The translations under genes were made by a program, and so were the position numbers. 64,000 nt of DNA from Bradyrhizobium sp. AZCC 1719 (GTDB lineage: Bacteria > Pseudomonadota > Alphaproteobacteria > Rhizobiales > Xanthobacteraceae), in NCBI RefSeq assembly GCF_036924525.1, contig NZ_JAZHRU010000001.1, forward strand, positions 5,795,001 through 5,859,000. Direction: 5' to 3'. The notes under the pieces are model-generated. The model saw nothing but the letters and a program-made list of their open reading frames with translations. It was not told where the DNA came from and did not search any database. This document shows positions 3,534 through 26,894 of the stretch, piece by piece (positions within the stretch are counted from its first letter, which is position 1; each line of letters begins with the position of its first letter).

Positions 3534-4429
3534 GGCTCTGGCCTTTCACCGATCGTGAGCTTGACTTGCAGCGGTTGGCCGGCGCGGCGAATTGTAATGT
3601 CGACGACGGAGCCGATACTGTCGGGCCCAAGCGATCGTATCAGCGAGCGCGTGCCGGTCAGCTTCTCGTTATTCCAGCCGACGATCACGTCGCCTTGCAG
3701 GATACCAGCAGCGGCCGCGGGACCTGACTTGTCGACACTCATCACCATCGCTCCGACGCCATCGTCGAGCTTGATCGGCTGCAATCCAACCCCGAGATAG
3801 CCCCGCGCAATCCGGCCATGGGTTTCAAGCCTTCCCGCGATCCGGTCGATCGTTGCGCCGGGAATCACAAGAATGCGTCGCACCCCCTGGACTGCCATGC
3901 CAATCGCTTCGCCGGAACCATTGACGGCAAGTCCCCCCTCGTGATTGCTGCGCAGCCGAACGTCGAGCTCGATCCTGGCATCGATCTCACCGCCACGAAG
4001 GCTGCGCCAGCGACCCCCGACCAGCGAGACGACGCCGAGCGCCGCAGTGGGAACGCCATGCTCGGCAGCGACCACGACCATCAGCGAGCCCAGATCCGGA
4101 ACAACAGGCGAGAACGCGACGGAGGCAGTATTAGGGATGGTCTTACCGGCATCACTCTTGGTATCGAGCCGCAGCAGCGCGATGTCGGTGGTGTGATCGC
4201 GTCCTGCGATCTTGGCCGACTGCGTCGTTCCGTCGGCAAGTTTGACTGAGACTTCGCCTTCTTCGGCCAGCGCTTCATCCGCCGTCACGATCAGGCCTGG
4301 TTTCCAGATGAAGCCGGAGGCCCGCGAGCGGTGCGAATGCACCGAGACGATCGCGGACTTTGTCCGGGCGACGACATCGGCAAGGGAGGAGGACAACGAC
4401 GGAAGGATAGCTGCAGTCGGGTCGGGCAT
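3530..4429 (-). CDS. HtrA/S1C-like protein with PDZ domain, catalytic His and Ser missing
   Basis: A 299-residue protein with the HtrA plan: a trypsin-like domain (about 12-195) and a PDZ domain (about 208-294; GYLGVGLQPI, then GILQGDVIVGWNNEKL). The catalytic triad is not intact. At the His position, normally TNNHVV, the sequence is T49-A-D-E52-A-L; at the Ser position, normally GNSGGP, it is N162-H-E164-G-G-L. The Asp motif is kept (T81-D82-IALLRLD). The protein is therefore predicted to be proteolytically inactive and may work as a binding or sensor protein. No signal peptide is evident. CCAGGAG lies ahead of the ATG. It is translationally coupled to the short LuxR regulator. Confidence 0.85.
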   Translation of the reverse strand: MPDPTAAILPSLSSSLADVVARTKSAIVSVHSHRSRASGFIWKPGLIVTADEALAEEGEVSVKLADGTTQSAKIAGRDHTTDIALLRLDTKSDAGKTIPNTASVAFSPVVPDLGSLMVVVAAEHGVPTAALGVVSLVGGRWRSLRGGEIDARIELDVRLRSNHEGGLAVNGSGEAIGMAVQGVRRILVIPGATIDRIAGRLETHGRIARGYLGVGLQPIKLDDGVGAMVMSVDKSGPAAAAGILQGDVIVGWNNEKLTGTRSLIRSLGPDSIGSVVDITIRRAGQPLQVKLTIGERPEP

Positions 4430-4546
4430 GACAGAACTCCTGGATCGGTTGAATCCAATCTGGGAGTTCAGATTGCGTTCGGGAACTAGCCTGGTGGGCA
4501 GGCCGCGGGAGTTTTTCGCCTCGAACGCGGACGTTCCCGCTTCGCA

Positions 4547-4717
4547 CTATGCCGTGTGTCCGGGATCGATGTGCTTTGGCGTCTTCTTCTCCCGTTGAGG
4601 CGTCATCCTCGCAGGATCGGGGGCGCCAGGCACGCCGCGCGGTCCGAGTTGTTCTCGCTGAATATCGTCTTCCGACTTCTCGGGTTCGACGCCATTGGGC
4701 TCGCGATTTCGGGTCAT
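4547..4717 (-). CDS. Small hydrophilic protein (56 aa)
   Basis: A short gene on the minus strand encoding 56 charged residues (MTRNREPNGVEPEKSEDD... ending KHIDPGHTA). It has no hydrophobic core and resembles in style the small proteins at 1970-3122. AAGGAG lies upstream of the ATG with a rather long 13-base spacing. A near-consensus EcfG promoter lies 40 bases upstream. The good agreement of start, stop, composition and promoter supports a real gene, although no family is recognised. Confidence 0.6.
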   Translation of the reverse strand: MTRNREPNGVEPEKSEDDIQREQLGPRGVPGAPDPARMTPQREKKTPKHIDPGHTA

Positions 4718-4757
4718 GGCTGAACGGGTTCTCCTTCGAACATCAGCTCACGCTGTT

Positions 4758-4782
4758 AATGCCTCAGCAGAACACCTGTTCC
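4758..4782 (-). promoter_or_regulatory. Candidate EcfG promoter
   Basis: Read on the minus strand: GGAAC (4782-4778), 16 bases, CATT (4761-4758). This matches GGAAC-N16-CGTT at eight of nine positions, with a perfect -35. The -10 ends 40 bases before the start of the 56-residue gene, almost the same distance as for the promoter at 1906-1930. Confidence 0.55.
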
Positions 4783-4887
4783 TATTCCTGATCTGGCGCA
4801 CGCCGTGGAACCAGCATTGCAGCGTGTTCCCGTGTCACAGCTTCCGAGTGTTGATGCTGCATCAATCAATTTTTCGGGGAACAGGAG

Positions 4888-18616: not shown

Positions 18617-19567
18617 GTGGCTGTCGTGCTCGACACCAGATCTTGCCTTCCGGAGCGCCGGCTTGCGGTGTGGCAGGACATCGTGTGCGACACTTTCGTC
18701 GGGCTCGACTGCAAATCGGACCTGCGCGGCGCGTTTTGGGGCTCGGTGTCGCAATCCAGAATCGGACAAATCGCGCTCACGCAGGTCGATTCCACGGCAC
18801 AGCGGGTATTCCGCACGCCGTCGCGGATAGCCCGCGCCAGCGAAGATTTCGTGCTGATGGCGCTGGGCAACAACGGCGTGAACGGCGTGTTCCAGGATGG
18901 CCGCGAGGCTGTCGTCTCCGCCGGACAATTCGTCATTTACGACACCACCCGCCCCTACGAGTTGCGGTTCGACGACAGCTTTTCGCAGACCATCTTCCAG
19001 ATGCCGCGCAAACTGCTGCAACAGCGCGTCGGCTCGTTCGATAGTCTGACCGCGACGACGTTTTCAGGTGATCGTCCGCTCGAACGGCTGACATATGATT
19101 TCGCGCGCAATGTGAGCAAGACGATCGAGCTGGTTGATCCCGCCACCGCAACGCGCCTGCTCGACCAGGCGCTCGACCTGCTGGCGATGACGCTTGCCGA
19201 CCGGCTGCATGGCCGCTTGCCGGAGCAGTCGGCCCACCGGTCGGCGCTGCTCTATCGCCTCAAGAACCATATCCTGACGCATCTTTCCGATCCCGAACTG
19301 TCGCTGCCGCGCGCTGCAGCCGCAGTCGGAATCTCGCCGCGTTATGCCAGCGATCTGATGGCCGCCGAACAGTCCTCGTTCCGCAGCTACGTGCAGGCGC
19401 AACGGCTGGAGCGCTGCAAGCGTGATCTTGCCGATTCCGCCTACCAGGCGCGGCACATCGGCGAGATCGCCTTCGCCTGGGGCTTTAACGACCTCGCCCA
19501 TTTCAGCCGCATCTTCAAGCAGCGCTTCGGCATCTCGCCGCGCGAATGGCGCGAGCAGCCGGGCTAG
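18617..19567 (+). CDS. AraC-family transcriptional regulator of the aldoxime/nitrile cluster
   Basis: A 316-residue regulator. The N-terminal 200 residues fit the AraC-binding-like (cupin-type) sensor domain (PERRLAVWQDIVCDTFVGLDC, GQFVIYDTTRPYELRFDDSFSQTIFQMPRKLL). The C-terminal 100 residues contain two helix-turn-helices: LSLPRAAAAVGISPRYASDL and RHIGEIAFAWGFNDLAHFSRIFKQRFGISPREWRE. It directly precedes the nitrilase and aldoxime dehydratase genes in the same direction, as is common for the regulators of aldoxime pathways, so it probably responds to an aldoxime or nitrile (inference). The start is GTG at 18617. Confidence 0.9.
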   Translation: MAVVLDTRSCLPERRLAVWQDIVCDTFVGLDCKSDLRGAFWGSVSQSRIGQIALTQVDSTAQRVFRTPSRIARASEDFVLMALGNNGVNGVFQDGREAVVSAGQFVIYDTTRPYELRFDDSFSQTIFQMPRKLLQQRVGSFDSLTATTFSGDRPLERLTYDFARNVSKTIELVDPATATRLLDQALDLLAMTLADRLHGRLPEQSAHRSALLYRLKNHILTHLSDPELSLPRAAAAVGISPRYASDLMAAEQSSFRSYVQAQRLERCKRDLADSAYQARHIGEIAFAWGFNDLAHFSRIFKQRFGISPREWREQPG

Positions 19568-19735
19568 CAACGTCTTTCGACCGGCGCTCCTTTCGCGCCA
19601 CGGGAGTCCGACGTTCTCCCGACCATCTGCCGGTTTAGACAAGTTTTCGTTCCGCCGCGGACAAGCGGTGCGCAATGCCACGGCTGTAGGCTTGGCATCA
19701 GCGAATGTCAGTTGTCGATGCGGGAGGACGATGCG

Positions 19736-20749
19736 ATGGGTCTGGTTCATCAGAAATACAAGGTGGCGGTGGTTCAGGCGGCGCCGGTTTTTCTTGATCT
19801 CGATGCGACCGTCGACAAGACTATCAACCTGATCGAGGAAGCTTCCGCCAACGGCGCGAAACTGATCGCGTTTCCCGAAACCTTCATTCCCGGCTATCCG
19901 TGGCAGATCTGGCTCGGCGCGCCTGCTTGGGCGATCGGCCGCGGTTTTGTGCAGCGCTACTTCGATAACTCGCTCGCCTTCGACAGCCCGCAGGCGGAAA
20001 AGATTCGCAATGCGGTGAAGCGCGCGAAACTAACCGCCGTGCTCGGGCTGTCCGAACGCGACGGCGGCAGCCTCTATATCGCGCAATGGCTGATCGGCCC
20101 GGATGGCGAAACCATCGCCAAGCGGCGGAAACTTCGTCCGACCCATGCCGAACGCACCGTGTTCGGTGAAGGCGACGGCAGCGATCTCGCCGTCCACGAC
20201 CGCGCCGACGTCGGACGGCTCGGTGCCTTGTGCTGCTGGGAGCATCTGCAGCCGTTGTCGAAATACGCGATGTACGCCCAGAACGAACAGGTCCATGTCG
20301 GCGCCTGGCCGAGTTTTTCGCTGTACGATCCGTTCGCGCATGCGCTCGGCCATGAGGTCAACAATGCCGCCAGCAAGGTCTATGCGGTCGAAGGCTCGTG
20401 CTTCTTCCTCGGCCCCTGCGCGGTCGTCTCGCAGGCCATGATCGACGAGCTCTGCGACTCTCCCGAAAAACATGCCTTCCTGCATGCCGGCGGCGGCCAC
20501 GCCGTGATCTACGGGCCGGACGGCAGTTCGCTGGCCGAGAAACTCCCGCCGGACCAGGAAGGTATTCTGTACGCCGACATCGACCTCGGCATGATTGGGG
20601 TAGCGAAGAACGCTGCCGATCCGGCCGGGCATTATTCGCGGCCCGACGTCACGCGGCTGCTGCTCAACAATAAGCGCGCCAACCGCGTCGAGCATTTCTC
20701 GCTTCCCGTCGATGCCGAGGTCATGAGCGAAATCAGGCTGCAGGCCTGA
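19736..20749 (+). CDS. Nitrilase
   Basis: About 337 residues. It hydrolyses a nitrile to the carboxylic acid and ammonia. The carbon-nitrogen hydrolase triad is complete: Glu in LIAFPETFIPGYPWQ (E48 from this start), Lys in KRRKLRPTHAERTVFG (K132), Cys in GALCCWEHLQPL (C167). The CWEH and PTHAER motifs are typical of true nitrilases rather than amidases. I chose ATG 19736 with GGGAGG 8 bases upstream; a TTG 24 bases earlier is possible. Next comes the aldoxime dehydratase gene after 31 bases, which supplies the nitrile, so together they turn an aldoxime into an acid. Confidence 0.93.
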   Translation: MGLVHQKYKVAVVQAAPVFLDLDATVDKTINLIEEASANGAKLIAFPETFIPGYPWQIWLGAPAWAIGRGFVQRYFDNSLAFDSPQAEKIRNAVKRAKLTAVLGLSERDGGSLYIAQWLIGPDGETIAKRRKLRPTHAERTVFGEGDGSDLAVHDRADVGRLGALCCWEHLQPLSKYAMYAQNEQVHVGAWPSFSLYDPFAHALGHEVNNAASKVYAVEGSCFFLGPCAVVSQAMIDELCDSPEKHAFLHAGGGHAVIYGPDGSSLAEKLPPDQEGILYADIDLGMIGVAKNAADPAGHYSRPDVTRLLLNNKRANRVEHFSLPVDAEVMSEIRLQA

Positions 20750-20780
20750 CGCGCTTCTTTTTCCGAGAAGGAGCAGGCCC

Positions 20781-21830
20781 ATGGAATCCGCAATCCCTGC
20801 GCATCTGCAAACCGCGCGAACGCGCCACCGCCGCGTCGGCGACGATTATGCGCCGCCCTACCCGTCCTTCGTGGCGCGGCACAAGCCAAGCGTGACGCGG
20901 GTGGTGATGGCCTATTTCGGCATCCAATCCCGCGGCGCGCTCCCGGTAGTCACGGAGCAGGCGTTGGCCCGGCTCGCTGCGGATTTCGCAAGCACCGATG
21001 GCCCGTCCCATTGGGACCGCGCGAGCTATATCGACGAGGCCGGTTTCACCAATCTTGTAACCGTGGCCTATTGGGACGAGCGGCAGAAATTCGATCGCTG
21101 GTTTCCACCCGCGCGCGAGCGCTGGACCGGCGAGCAGCGGACCAATAACGGGTTCGGTACCTTCATCGAGGCGCTTTACCCGTCCGTCGAGGGCTATGAG
21201 ACGCTGTTCTCTTCGCTCGGAAGGCCCGAAGGCGTCGCCGTTCTCGCCGACGGCATGAGCGGCGAGGTGTTGGAGCACGCCTATTGGGGCGGCATGCGCG
21301 ATCGTATCCCGTTGTCCCAAACCAGCGAGATGGCGCCCTCAGGTTCCGCGCGAGCCATTCGCGACGGCGCGCGTATCCGGATCATCCCGCATGACAATGT
21401 CTGCCTGATCCGGTCGGGCCAGGATTGGGGCGATACCGAAGCCGCCGAGCGCAAGATGTACCTCGGCGATGTCGAGCCGGTGCTGCGCGAAGGCATGGAT
21501 TTCCTCCGTGACCAGGGACGTTCGATCGGCTGCTACGCCAACCGTTACATGACGGTTGTCGGCCCCGATGGCGCGACAACCGAAAAGTCCTACGGCATGA
21601 GCTGGTGGAAGAGCCTGTCGGCGCTGGAACGCTGGGCTGAATCGCATCCGACCCATGTCAGGATTTTCGGCGCTGCCATGAAGTACCTGTCGACCCTTGG
21701 ACCGGCCGCAAAACTGCGGCTGTACCACGAGGTCACTGTCGCCCGCGCCGACGAACAGCTTTTCGAATATGTGGATTGTCATCCGCAAACCGGAATGCTG
21801 AACGCCGTGCAAACGGTGGAGACGGCCTGA
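20781..21830 (+). CDS. oxd: Aldoxime dehydratase (phenylacetaldoxime dehydratase type)
   Basis: A 349-residue protein recognisable as Oxd, the haem enzyme that dehydrates aldoximes to nitriles in the cytoplasm. Family landmarks visible are the Arg-rich start ... PPYPSFVARHKPSVTRVVMAYFGIQ, GPSHWDRASYIDEAGFTNLVTVAYWD, AYWGGMRDRIP, MSWWKSLSALERWAESHPTH and KLRLYHEVTVARADEQLFEYVDCHPQTGML. His292 (in SHPTH) and His316 (in LYHEV) are the candidates for haem and catalytic histidines. Length agrees with OxdA/OxdB (about 350). GAGAAGGAG lies upstream of the ATG. The pair with nitrilase is the classic aldoxime-nitrile pathway; plant aldoximes such as indole- or phenyl-acetaldoxime are possible substrates (inference). 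Confidence 0.93.
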   Translation: MESAIPAHLQTARTRHRRVGDDYAPPYPSFVARHKPSVTRVVMAYFGIQSRGALPVVTEQALARLAADFASTDGPSHWDRASYIDEAGFTNLVTVAYWDERQKFDRWFPPARERWTGEQRTNNGFGTFIEALYPSVEGYETLFSSLGRPEGVAVLADGMSGEVLEHAYWGGMRDRIPLSQTSEMAPSGSARAIRDGARIRIIPHDNVCLIRSGQDWGDTEAAERKMYLGDVEPVLREGMDFLRDQGRSIGCYANRYMTVVGPDGATTEKSYGMSWWKSLSALERWAESHPTHVRIFGAAMKYLSTLGPAAKLRLYHEVTVARADEQLFEYVDCHPQTGMLNAVQTVETA

Positions 21831-23252: not shown

Positions 23253-24530
23253 TCACACCTTCTCCACCCCACACCATTCCGCAATGAACAGCGCCGTCGC
23301 TTTCGTCGACTTCCGCAGCGAGTCCAGCTCGACATATTCGTTGAAGCCGTGCATCGCGGCGCCCTTCGCGCCGAAGCAGAGGCTCGGGATGTTGTAATTC
23401 AACCCATAGAACCGCGTATCGGTCAGCGCGGTGAACGCGCGGTCCGGCACCACGCCGCCATAGACGGCGTCGAACGCTTTTGCGAAGGCGGCTTCCGGCT
23501 CGGCCGAGTTCGTCAGTTCATAACCCTCCGACAAAAAGCCCGACCACTCGACCTGCGGCGGGTTGTTGGAGAGGAAACGATGATCCCGCGCCGCCGCCGA
23601 CACGCAGGCCAAAATCTCCTTCTGGCATTCGGCGATCGACCAGCCCGGCAGAACCGCGATGCGACAATCGACGTCGCACCAGGCCGGCACGCTGGAGGCC
23701 CAGTCGCCGCCCTTGATGATGCCGGGGTTGAAGTTGAGCGGATGCGCGACCGCCTTGAAGTGGCGGTCCGCCTTGGCGCGCTCGTTCCAGTCGGCCTCAA
23801 GCTTCTGCAGCGCGTGGATCAGATGATACGCCGCCATGATCGCGTTGGCGCCGGCGCCGGCCTCGAACACGTGCACCGGGAAGCCGCGCACCTTCAGGCG
23901 AAACCAGATCACGCCGACCTGTGAGCGCACCATGGCCTCGCCCGTCGGCTCCGGGATGAAGCAGGCGTCCGCGCGATAACCGCGCTGCAAGGTCGAGAGC
24001 GCGCCGACGCCGGTCGACTCCTCCTCGATCACGGATTGAAAATGGATGCGCGCCGTCGGCTTCAGCCCTGCGGCCTTGATCGCATCCAACGCATACAGCG
24101 CGCTGATGGTGCCGGATTTCATGTCGCAAGCGCCGCGGCCGTACATCTTGCCGTCCTTGATGGCAGGCGAGAACGGCGGCGTCTCCCACATGTCGAGGGG
24201 TCCTGCCGGCACCACGTCGCAATGGCCCTGCAGGATCAGCGATTTGCCGGCGTTGTTGGAGGGCCTATAGGTGCCGACCACCGTGCGCGCCTTGGAAAAA
24301 TCATGCTCGATCGGGCCGAAGCCGCGCAGATCCTTCAAATCCTCGACGTCGATACGCCAATCGTCGACCTCGTAGCCACGTTGGCGCAGGAGATCGCCGA
24401 TCATGTCCTGGCACGGTCCTTCGGCGCCGCGGGTCGAGGGAATCGCAACGAAATCCTTCGTCGTCGCCAGTTGCGCATCAAAGCCGGCGTCGACGGCGTC
24501 GAGGATTCTTTGTTGCGTATCGGTCGTCAT
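23253..24530 (-). CDS. M20-family metallopeptidase (ArgE/DapE type)
   Basis: A 425-residue cytoplasmic deacylase/peptidase. The zinc motifs are present: LILQGHCDVVPAGPLDMWETPPF (His, Asp), YGRGACDMKSGTISALYAL (bridging Asp), FQSVIEEESTGVGALSTL (catalytic Glu-Glu), FIPEPTGEAMVRSQVG, and a final His in GAKGAAMHGFNEYVEL. The dimerisation domain lies between about 190 and 300. ATG 24530 has GGAG 8 bases upstream; an earlier in-frame start adds 15 residues. Acetylornithine deacetylase or a related N-acyl-amino-acid hydrolase is likely; the family does not allow a precise substrate. Confidence 0.88.
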   Translation of the reverse strand: MTTDTQQRILDAVDAGFDAQLATTKDFVAIPSTRGAEGPCQDMIGDLLRQRGYEVDDWRIDVEDLKDLRGFGPIEHDFSKARTVVGTYRPSNNAGKSLILQGHCDVVPAGPLDMWETPPFSPAIKDGKMYGRGACDMKSGTISALYALDAIKAAGLKPTARIHFQSVIEEESTGVGALSTLQRGYRADACFIPEPTGEAMVRSQVGVIWFRLKVRGFPVHVFEAGAGANAIMAAYHLIHALQKLEADWNERAKADRHFKAVAHPLNFNPGIIKGGDWASSVPAWCDVDCRIAVLPGWSIAECQKEILACVSAAARDHRFLSNNPPQVEWSGFLSEGYELTNSAEPEAAFAKAFDAVYGGVVPDRAFTALTDTRFYGLNYNIPSLCFGAKGAAMHGFNEYVELDSLRKSTKATALFIAEWCGVEKV

Positions 24531-24587: not shown

Positions 24588-25313
24588 TCAGCCGCCGGCG
24601 TAATGCGCAAAATGCGCATCCCGCAATGCATCTTCGAGCAGGCGGCCTTCAGAATAGCCGCTCAGCGAGGCCGGTCGCTCGACGCCGTCGAGAAGCCGCG
24701 GACAGGGTTCCGGCCGGCCCAGCACCGTGCGCACCGGAATACGCTCGGCATAAACAGGCAGTTCGTAGTCCTCATCGTCGTCGGCGACCCCCTTCGACCT
24801 GATCTTGGCGGACGCCTGCTCGATTTCCATTGCGACGACCGACGTCGCCCTGATCTCCTGCGCCGTGCTTTGCCTTAACGTCGCAGTCCGATCGGGAAAG
24901 AACCGGTCGACCATGGCGACGAGCGCGCGCTCCTTCTCCACCGGATCGGTGACGAGATAGGCGGTGCCGAATGCCATCACGGCGCGGTAATCCGCCGAAT
25001 GGTTGAAGCCGCAGCGGGCCAGCACCAGGCTGTCGAGATGCGCAACCGTGAGGCAGACCCTCTCGCCCTCGGACTGGTTTCGCAGCATGCGGCTGGCGCT
25101 GCTGCCATGCCAGTACAGCCTGCTTCCCTCCCGCCAGAAGAACGTCGGCGTGCAATAGGGCTGGCCGTCGATCACATAGGAGACGTGGCACAGCATCGAG
25201 GCGTCGAGCAGGCCGTGCACCGTGGCGTGGTCGTAGAAGCCGCGATCATGACGGCGCTTCACCTGATTGCGCGGCGATAGCGGATACACATCGGCGGTCA
25301 CGGCTTCGGTCAC
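24588..25313 (-). CDS. Pyridoxamine-5'-phosphate-oxidase-like flavin-binding protein
   Basis: A 241-residue protein of the split-barrel flavin-binding group (Pyridox_ox_2): RHDRGFYDHATVHGLLDASMLCHVSYVIDGQPYCTPTFFWREGSRLYWHGSSASRML, then VCLTVAHLDSLVLARCGFNHSADYRAVMAFGTAYLV. These match the nitroimidazole-resistance/FMN-binding relatives. The start is GTG with GAGGAG 6 bases upstream. It is divergent from the MocR regulator, a frequent arrangement in which the regulator controls the oxidase-like gene. The reaction is unknown. Confidence 0.85.
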   Translation of the reverse strand: MTEAVTADVYPLSPRNQVKRRHDRGFYDHATVHGLLDASMLCHVSYVIDGQPYCTPTFFWREGSRLYWHGSSASRMLRNQSEGERVCLTVAHLDSLVLARCGFNHSADYRAVMAFGTAYLVTDPVEKERALVAMVDRFFPDRTATLRQSTAQEIRATSVVAMEIEQASAKIRSKGVADDDEDYELPVYAERIPVRTVLGRPEPCPRLLDGVERPASLSGYSEGRLLEDALRDAHFAHYAGG

Positions 25314-25388
25314 GGCAGCTCCTCATGGGATCGGGTGCAATCGTTGAGAGTTGTATCGGCGAATTTGGTCTGCGATAGTGCCAATTGC

Positions 25389-26894
25389 ATGCGAAAAATT
25401 CCGACCAATTCCCCGCCGGCGCGACGCAAGGCCGAGCTCGCGCTCGATCTCTCCGGCCCTCACGTGACGCCGGGCGCCTCGGCCCCGCACCGGCTCTATC
25501 AGGCGCTGTGCCACGCCATCACGGGCGGAATTGCAAAGCCCGGCGAGCCGCTGCCGCCATCACGCACGCTGGCCAAGCAGACCGGTTTCCGCCGTAACGC
25601 CGTCACCTCGGCCTATGAGCGGCTGATCGCGGACGGATTTGCGGTAGCCACCGTCGGTTCCGGCACTTTCGTCGCCGCGCGCATTCCCGCCCGCGTCCAT
25701 GACGCTCGCAGGACGAAGATCGCGATCGAGCCGCCGCAGCAAGGCCCGCTCGCGCTCGGCTGCACGCACATCGACGAACGGGCGCTGCAGCGCTTCCGGG
25801 CGTTTGCCGGCCGGCGCATGCGCGCCTTCGGCACCGAACACCTGCAGTACGGCGACCCCAGGGGCAGCCGCGAACTCCGCGCCGCGATCGCCGATCATTT
25901 GCTGTCGGCGCGTGGGCTGCGCTGCGATCCCGACCAGATCATGCTGACGTCGGGAACGCAGCATAGCTTACGGATCGTGCTGGGCGCGATCCTCGAGCCC
26001 GGCGATCAGATCTGGTGCGAAGACCCCGGCTATCCCGCCGCACGAAGGGCGATCGAGCATTGCGGCCTGCGCCCCATCTCTGTGCCGGTCGACGCTTCAG
26101 GCCTGATCGTGACCAGGGGCCGGGCCCTCGCTCCTTCGGCTGGCGCGGCCTATGTGACACCGTCGCACCAATTTCCCCTCGGCGTGCAGATGTCGATGCC
26201 GCGGCGGCTCGAATTGCTCGACTGGGCCAGGGATGCGGATGCTTTCGTCATCGAGGACGACTACGACAGCGAATTCCGATACGACGGCGCGCCGCTGCTG
26301 TCGCTCGCCGGCATCGATCATCTCTCGCGCGTCATCTACATGGGCACGTTTGCAAAGACGTTGTTCCCCGGGTTGCGCATCGGCTACTGCGCGCTACCCG
26401 AGCGGCTCGTCGGGCCGGTGACGACAGCCCGCGCCGCGCTCGACCGCTTTCCCGGCACGCTGCTCGAAGGTGCGGTCGCAGACATGCTGAATTCCGGCGC
26501 GTTCGCGGCCAACCTGCGCCGGGTGCGCGGGATCTATCGCGAAGCGCGCGACGTGCTGGCTTCGACCCTCTCGGCGGCATCGCAGGGAAAGCTCTCGGTG
26601 CCGGTGCCCTCGCAGGGCCTGCATCTGGTCGCGCGGTTCGATCCATCGGCCGATCCCCGTATCGCCGCGCAGGCCAAGGCCGAGGCCGGCGTCGCAGGTT
26701 GGCTACTGGCGGAGACTTATTTCCGCGCACGCCCGCTTCCAGGCTTCGTCCTCGGCTTTGCCGGCCACAAGCTGCCACAACTGATCGCGTCGGCCGAGCG
26801 ACTCGCGAAATCATCGCTGGCCGCCTTGCAGGCAAACGGCAAGCCGAACAAGGCTGGAACTGGCAAGGTCAAACGGCTGAAGGCCGTGACGTGA
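25389..26894 (+). CDS. MocR/GntR-type regulator with aminotransferase-like domain (PdxR-like)
   Basis: 501 residues from ATG 25389. The N-terminal GntR winged helix spans about residues 30-100 (LYQALCHAITGGIAKPGEPLPPSRTLAKQTGFRRNAVTSAYERLIADGFAVATVGSGTFVA). It is followed by a fold-type I aminotransferase domain with QYGDPRGSRELRAAIADHLLSARG, SGTQHSL, the PLP-anchoring Asp region VIEDDYDSEFRYDG, and the Lys of MGTFAKTLFPGLRIGY (K323). These regulators use PLP as an effector, often controlling vitamin B6 genes. Divergent position from a pyridoxamine-oxidase-like gene fits that role. The C-terminus has a Lys-rich tail. Confidence 0.9.
   Translation: MRKIPTNSPPARRKAELALDLSGPHVTPGASAPHRLYQALCHAITGGIAKPGEPLPPSRTLAKQTGFRRNAVTSAYERLIADGFAVATVGSGTFVAARIPARVHDARRTKIAIEPPQQGPLALGCTHIDERALQRFRAFAGRRMRAFGTEHLQYGDPRGSRELRAAIADHLLSARGLRCDPDQIMLTSGTQHSLRIVLGAILEPGDQIWCEDPGYPAARRAIEHCGLRPISVPVDASGLIVTRGRALAPSAGAAYVTPSHQFPLGVQMSMPRRLELLDWARDADAFVIEDDYDSEFRYDGAPLLSLAGIDHLSRVIYMGTFAKTLFPGLRIGYCALPERLVGPVTTARAALDRFPGTLLEGAVADMLNSGAFAANLRRVRGIYREARDVLASTLSAASQGKLSVPVPSQGLHLVARFDPSADPRIAAQAKAEAGVAGWLLAETYFRARPLPGFVLGFAGHKLPQLIASAERLAKSSLAALQANGKPNKAGTGKVKRLKAVT

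Follow-up and report, generated by a model that had tools for sequence, protein, structure and literature searches.

The window analyzed here, a stretch of 64,000 nucleotides from Bradyrhizobium sp. AZCC 1719 (positions 5,795,001 to 5,859,000 of a single-contig, 7.2-Mb genome), carries three adjacent genes encoding an AraC-family regulator resembling NitR, a nitrilase (nit) and a heme aldoxime dehydratase (oxd; protein, Oxd). A sequence-only reading of this DNA had described them as a compact aldoxime-to-acid pathway with an AraC regulator, with 31 bases between the enzyme genes and all catalytic residues present. These points were recovered in full: the three open reading frames at 18617..21830 are intact and on the + strand (Table 1), the gap between nit and oxd comprises bases 20750-20780, and the catalytic residues of both enzymes were located by alignment. 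A ribosome-binding-type AAGGAG sits just 5' of oxd, and the regulator, nit and oxd directly adjoin one another, with nit and oxd on the same strand, as expected of a NitR-nit-oxd cluster. For nit, two starts are available, ATG 19736 and TTG 19712. The former is probably used because, in a comparison with named relatives (the best 80 of 151 confirmed loci), 79 of the 80 carry ATG at this place and one has TCG.

Table 1. Positions of the cluster genes and of the predicted control elements in the window
Feature	Position	Strand	Remarks
AraC/XylS-family regulator (NitR-like)	18617..19567	+	GTG start, 316 residues; PF14525 and HTH_18 above cut-off
Putative NitR operator, direct repeat GACAAG-N16-GACAAG	19638..19665	+	conserved upstream of nit
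Possible -10 element TGTAGGCT	19685..19692	+	recurs in many loci of the window's clade; weak
Nitrilase (nit)	19736..20749	+	337 residues; PF00795, 6zby, E48/K132/C167/E139
Heme aldoxime dehydratase (oxd)	20781..21830	+	349 residues; PF13816, 3w08/3a15; H292, H316, R175, S212

The enzymes and their regulator

The Oxd protein matches PF13816 with 274.6 bits (cut-off 25) over the complete profile (1-310 of 310). The structures 3w08 and 3a15 score 333 and 331 bits, the nearest solved Oxds being OxdA and OxdRE, while 7f2y, which we take to be OxdB (phenylacetaldoxime dehydratase), scores 180 bits. Residue H292 aligns with H299 of OxdA, presumably the heme ligand in both proteins, and H316, R175 and S212 align with OxdA H320, R178 and S219. 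These OxdA residues have been proposed to act as the acid-base catalyst, as its proton donor-acceptor and in fixing the substrate, respectively (PMC5391958). All four residues are unvarying in 88 Oxd rows, among which the window appears twice and three rows are pieces of split genes, row L132 having been dropped for a stop sign. The score against the NCBIfam aliphatic OxdA model NF050090, 407 bits, lies under the equivalog cut-off of 600, and the protein is therefore not named OxdA here. The closest named relatives, among the best 80 of the 151 loci, are from Bradyrhizobium, with 94% identity in B. murdochi and others. The protein is the single Oxd match in the genome, where a search for a second one found none. 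Plasmid records gave 34 Oxd matches, every one below 60% identity, and thus no sign of a recent plasmid transfer of the window Oxd. Records for plasmids labeled Escherichia coli and Klebsiella pneumoniae hold an Oxd 47.7% identical to that of the window; hence, aldoxime dehydratases do occur on enterobacterial plasmids.

The nitrilase matches PF00795 with 174.9 bits, and its best solved structure is NitA (6zby, 420.6 bits). Residues E48, K132, C167 and E139, numbered from ATG 19736, are unvarying in 104 nitrilase rows (the window included twice); we take E48, K132 and C167 to be the catalytic Glu-Lys-Cys triad and E139 to be catalytic as well. The protein thus combines a CN_hydrolase domain and these residues with a nitrilase as its nearest structure. 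The genome contains no second match to it. A nitrile hydratase alpha subunit gene (303 bits), located about 0.3 Mb from the cluster at 5475416-5475961 of the genome (G000), is by its sequence match a second nitrile route, apart from the cluster.

The regulator is recognized by PF14525 (85.5 bits) and HTH_18 (70.6 bits). Its best NCBIfam model, FeaR NF007243, reaches 155.3 bits against a cut-off of 199, and its solved relatives are weak, the best scoring 49.8 bits.

A conserved repeat upstream of nit and the orientation of the regulator

Upstream of nit lies a 28-bp direct repeat with a spacing of 22 bp, which ends 70 bp before the ATG and which, given its conservation, is likely the NitR operator. 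The window contains a single instance of the pattern and 100 shuffles none; the copy before nit is the only exact match in the genome. Among 120 nit-bearing loci, which include the window and some species twice, 115 contain the block with at most two mismatches and 100 with at most one; it is absent, at that tolerance, upstream of nit in L029, L096, L098, L126 and L127. The half-sites, counted in 110 loci with five re-fetched ones left out, are GACAAG twice in 21, GTCGAG twice in 55, GTCGAA twice in 14 and unlike each other in 20. In the window's clade, 21 of 23 loci have GACAAG in both halves. Identical halves are found in 31 of 48 distinct blocks, compared with a mean of 14 and a maximum of 25 in 10,000 shuffles, from which relatedness was not removed. 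The consensus of the regulator DNA-binding domain also differs between the half-site groups, in ways that need not bear on the half-site change. A wider regulon than nit-oxd did not emerge, as further genomic matches carry two to three mismatches and number 11, versus 17 for a reversed-pattern control. In the excerpts covered of the literature on aldoxime dehydratase with nitrilase, AraC or NitR, no NitR binding site was found.

Between the repeat and nit, the possible -10 element listed in Table 1 has a counterpart in the other clade, a similar word about 4 bp further on. A sigma-70 scan returned no consensus promoter, and Rfam at its gathering threshold gave no match anywhere in the window.

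Among the 80 named relatives, nit adjoins oxd without exception, and 79 also have a neighboring AraC gene. That gene is codirectional with nit in 19 loci and divergently oriented in 60; L015 has none. The 19 codirectional loci belong to close relatives of the window, and each has the GNAT, thioesterase and binding-protein genes that flank the window's cluster; within the stretch examined, none of the 60 divergent loci shares these neighbors. Similarly, 17 genome loci with nit (L082-L098) comprise five that are codirectional, the window included, 11 that are divergent and one with no AraC gene in the stretch; the four loci of other genera that hold an AraC gene are all among the 11. Because divergence thus prevails in both sets and extends to other genera, it is probably the ancestral arrangement, with the window's clade having a flipped regulator and a different neighborhood. 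Compared with the 60 divergent loci, the window regulator is 38-63% identical (median 59), the nitrilase 79-84% (81) and Oxd 71-76% (73). The NitR match of one locus, L066, is in two parts, next to an intact nit. A contig titled "Frankia sp. RB7" (L039; contig 109 of G204) carries a Bradyrhizobium-type cluster with an oxd at 73% identity, and its record name looks wrong.

Retention of nit and oxd within the genus

Across 117 sampled genomes of the genus, nit (at least 74% identity) is found in 93 and has an internal stop in none. Of these 93, 75 have a full-length oxd alongside, three have one split between frames and 14 have none; in G331 a contig end truncates the gene, and leaving this genome out gives 92 assessable cases. 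No genome among the 117 has a full-length oxd (at least 70% identity) without nit; G283 and G316 lack a close nit and have only a 29% relative. The regulator, at 52-60% identity, and the operator repeat are kept beside nit in 12 of the 14 oxd-less loci, one of which (L118) has the regulator in two pieces of different frame (3922-4822) and an intact nit. The oxd-less L126 and L127 have a more distant AraC protein and no repeat. The three broken genes (G249, G315 and G321) all lie beside an intact nit. Among the split genes, those of loci L129, L130 and L131, the breaks of L130 and L131 fall near the same codon (~150) and are perhaps one inherited event. Stops in the oxd of G248, G212, G250 and G333 were considered as breakage and rejected, since they are the ends of slightly shorter proteins, and these genes were counted as full-length. 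In G342 (L136, 3127-3249), only the last ~40 oxd codons (76%) are present with no nit match, either what remains of a lost cluster or a stray fragment.

On the nit tree, oxd absence amounts to 13 changes, of which the starred branches force three, with 70 of the 100 inner branches left open. A number of changes this small is reached in 81 of 500 label shuffles. In this tree, G331 (L128) was coded as oxd "absent" and L132 (G248) as "broken". Likely, oxd was lost several times, though the tree is weak and does not distinguish loss from gain; we prefer loss because the position of oxd is shared by the two clades and by certain other genera of the family.

Selection on the three genes was compared in 20 and 62 loci (190, 200 and 300 pairs), without L128 and L132. 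Median omega within clades is lowest for nit (0.04-0.06), with 0.13 for oxd and 0.14-0.15 for the regulator; the between-clade medians, where synonymous change is high, are 0.16, 0.18 and 0.34 in the same order. Thus, nit is two to three times more constrained than oxd within clades and hardly so between them. As nit is both kept more often and, within clades, more constrained, the regulator and nitrilase look like a stable core, or constant unit, with oxd the part more often missing.

Function of the cluster and relation to known systems

We favor, with a probability of roughly 0.85, a regulated two-step aldoxime-nitrile pathway that serves nutrition or detoxification more than auxin formation. 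In such a pathway, NitR would sense an aldoxime, a nitrile or a related compound, bind the 28-bp repeat 5' of nit and switch on one nit-oxd transcript. Control by NitR is suggested by adjacency and the conserved site, and a single transcript by the 31-bp gap and shared strand. To judge from homology and catalytic residues, the heme enzyme Oxd would dehydrate the aldoxime to the nitrile, and the nitrilase would convert the nitrile to acid and ammonia. The most likely substrates are plant arylacetaldoximes and nitriles of the phenylacetaldoxime, phenylacetonitrile or mandelonitrile type. The genome encodes paaA (phenylacetyl-CoA oxygenase, 557.9 bits), so phenylacetate from the pathway could be used further. 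The benefit is probably a supply of nitrogen or carbon and detoxification rather than auxin production; at the least, use as a nitrogen or carbon source or detoxification is as likely as auxin formation.

Several observations weigh against this interpretation. Sequence does not reveal the substrate, and the sole NCBIfam match of Oxd is an aliphatic model, under its cut-off. The best NCBIfam match of the nitrilase, the Nit6803 nitrilase TIGR04048, gives 228.3 bits, short of its cut-off of 502.6. Between clades, nit and oxd have nearly the same omega. A characterized NitR, that of Alcaligenes, responded solely to epsilon-caprolactam among the effectors tested (PMC6265244). Finally, the papers conflict on a Bradyrhizobium nitrilase: according to PMC8955678, its reference 34 found mandelonitrile and phenylacetonitrile to be the best substrates, but PMC4070871 draws on that paper for an aliphatic nitrilase that prefers hydrocinnamonitrile.

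The alternative that survives best, which we hold only tentatively, is that the module serves for the NitR-controlled hydrolysis of plant nitriles (mandelonitrile or phenylacetonitrile type), oxd being an accessory gene by which the range of substrates is broadened. The retention data are in its favor: all 93 holders have nit uninterrupted, 14 of the 92 assessable loci lack oxd and three have it split, the oxd-less loci largely retain NitR and the repeat, and nit is the more constrained gene within clades. However, oxd is itself under purifying selection (omega ~0.13) and adjoins nit in most genomes, which indicates that it is useful where kept. In addition, the tighter constraint on nit may be due simply to its fold, and the difference between the two genes nearly disappears between clades. 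A fuller version, to which we lend a similarly guarded, less than even credence, is that what is conserved in Bradyrhizobium is a nitrilase controlled by NitR through a single-target operator, that oxd is an optional addition lost several times, and that the half-sites changed in concert from GTCGAG/GTCGAG to GACAAG/GACAAG in the clade with the flipped regulator. If so, the module would sense and destroy plant nitriles first and aldoximes in some lineages only.

It is unlikely that the two enzymes instead work mainly on aliphatic aldoximes and nitriles of the isovaleraldoxime type. The closest solved Oxds, OxdA and OxdRE, the lone NCBIfam match and the preference of OxdK for isovaleraldoxime (PMC8955678) point in this direction. 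Against it, that match falls under its cut-off, the specificity of OxdBr1 from Bradyrhizobium is described as similar to that of OxdB and OxdRG (PMC8955678), and the described Bradyrhizobium nitrilases include mandelonitrile hydrolases (PMC8955678, PMC3599355).

Least probable, and in our view quite unlikely, is that the cluster mainly turns plant indole-3-acetaldoxime into indole-3-acetic acid: such a route is possible, but nothing at the locus favors auxin in particular. Characterized Oxds do act on indole-3-acetaldoxime, with relative activities of 18% for OxdB, 1% for OxdK and 11% for OxdRG (Table 2 of PMC8955678). The same paper calls OxdRG good on this compound (Vmax 0.281 versus 0.392 U/mg for its best substrate), lists OxdBr1 as active on it and describes one fungal Oxd for which it is the best substrate. 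Moreover, an oxd-nit pair of B. japonicum CPAC 15 was linked to indole-3-acetic acid in 2014 (PMC4070871). Still, these relative activities are low, the homologues described for the LTSPM299 nitrilase reportedly act on mandelonitrile or phenylacetonitrile (PMC8955678), and one Bradyrhizobium nitrilase is cited as aliphatic and weak on indole-acetonitrile (PMC4070871).

The association with nodulation bears on the auxin route in both directions. A NodA match is present in 72 of the 117 genomes of the genus, 64 of them strong. Uncorrected for kinship, oxd is commoner in NodA-bearing genomes (50/64 vs 25/53, p 0.0009), as is nit (p 0.0002); restricted to nit holders, however, the comparison shows no association of oxd with NodA (p 0.40). 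The window genome has no NodA match; it is thus its genus, rather than nodulation genes, that supports describing the bacterium as plant-associated. While the residues and the published clusters support well the AraC-regulated pathway of the sequence-only reading, its auxin component is unproven and had been suggested already in 2014 (PMC4070871), and the plant association it assumed holds by genus.

Two further features of the window lie downstream of the cluster. A tRNA-Phe call by ARAGORN (23726-23805, +) falls within an M20/ArgE deacylase gene of the opposite strand and is probably false, because Rfam found nothing in the window. A pyridoxamine-oxidase-like gene and the gene of a MocR/PdxR-type regulator (above the PdxR cut-off) are arranged back to back at 24588-26894, likely a vitamin B6-type regulatory pair by sequence.

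Aldoximes and nitriles are plant defense compounds and hormone precursors, and how bradyrhizobia handle them has been little tested. The favored two-step pathway itself has precedents. In 2022, it was described with the nitrilase gene and an AraC-type NitR gene probably upstream of oxd in Bacillus and Bradyrhizobium; the paper counted 248 Bradyrhizobium Oxds, discussed auxin, nutrition and the breaking of defenses and found the needed studies largely lacking (PMC8955678). The closest likeness is the LTSPM299 cluster of OxdBr1, from the same genus, in which AraC regulator and nitrilase genes also lie upstream of oxd; OxdBr1 shares ~47% identity with OxdRG and OxdK (PMC8955678), which are closely related to OxdRE and OxdA, the best matches of the window Oxd. 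The comparison with the window covered two strains of similar name, LTSP885 and LTSP849, rather than OxdBr1 itself: their Oxds are 76% and 73% identical to the window Oxd, and their regulator is divergent from nit, in contrast to the codirectional one of the window. Bacillus sp. OxB-1 unites the same three functions, oxd-nit and an AraC-like regulator, with expression induced by Z-phenylacetaldoxime (PMC4342420), although its Oxd is of a more distant type than that of the window (7f2y, 180 bits). The Rhodococcus and Pseudomonas clusters of OxdRE and OxdA share the Oxd family and active site but have nitrile hydratase and amidase in place of the nitrilase (PMC8955678). The Bradyrhizobium mandelonitrile hydrolases (bll6402 of USDA 110 and the BTAi1 and ORS278 enzymes; PMC3599355) are nitrilases of the same genus, likened here by description, not by sequence. 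The cluster type is therefore already known from Bradyrhizobium; what is added here, on a small scale, is the putative operator, the flip of the regulator and the retention of nit over oxd. The cluster is widespread in the genus, and the operator repeat and the natural oxd-less strains let its role with aldoximes, nitriles or auxin be asked directly.

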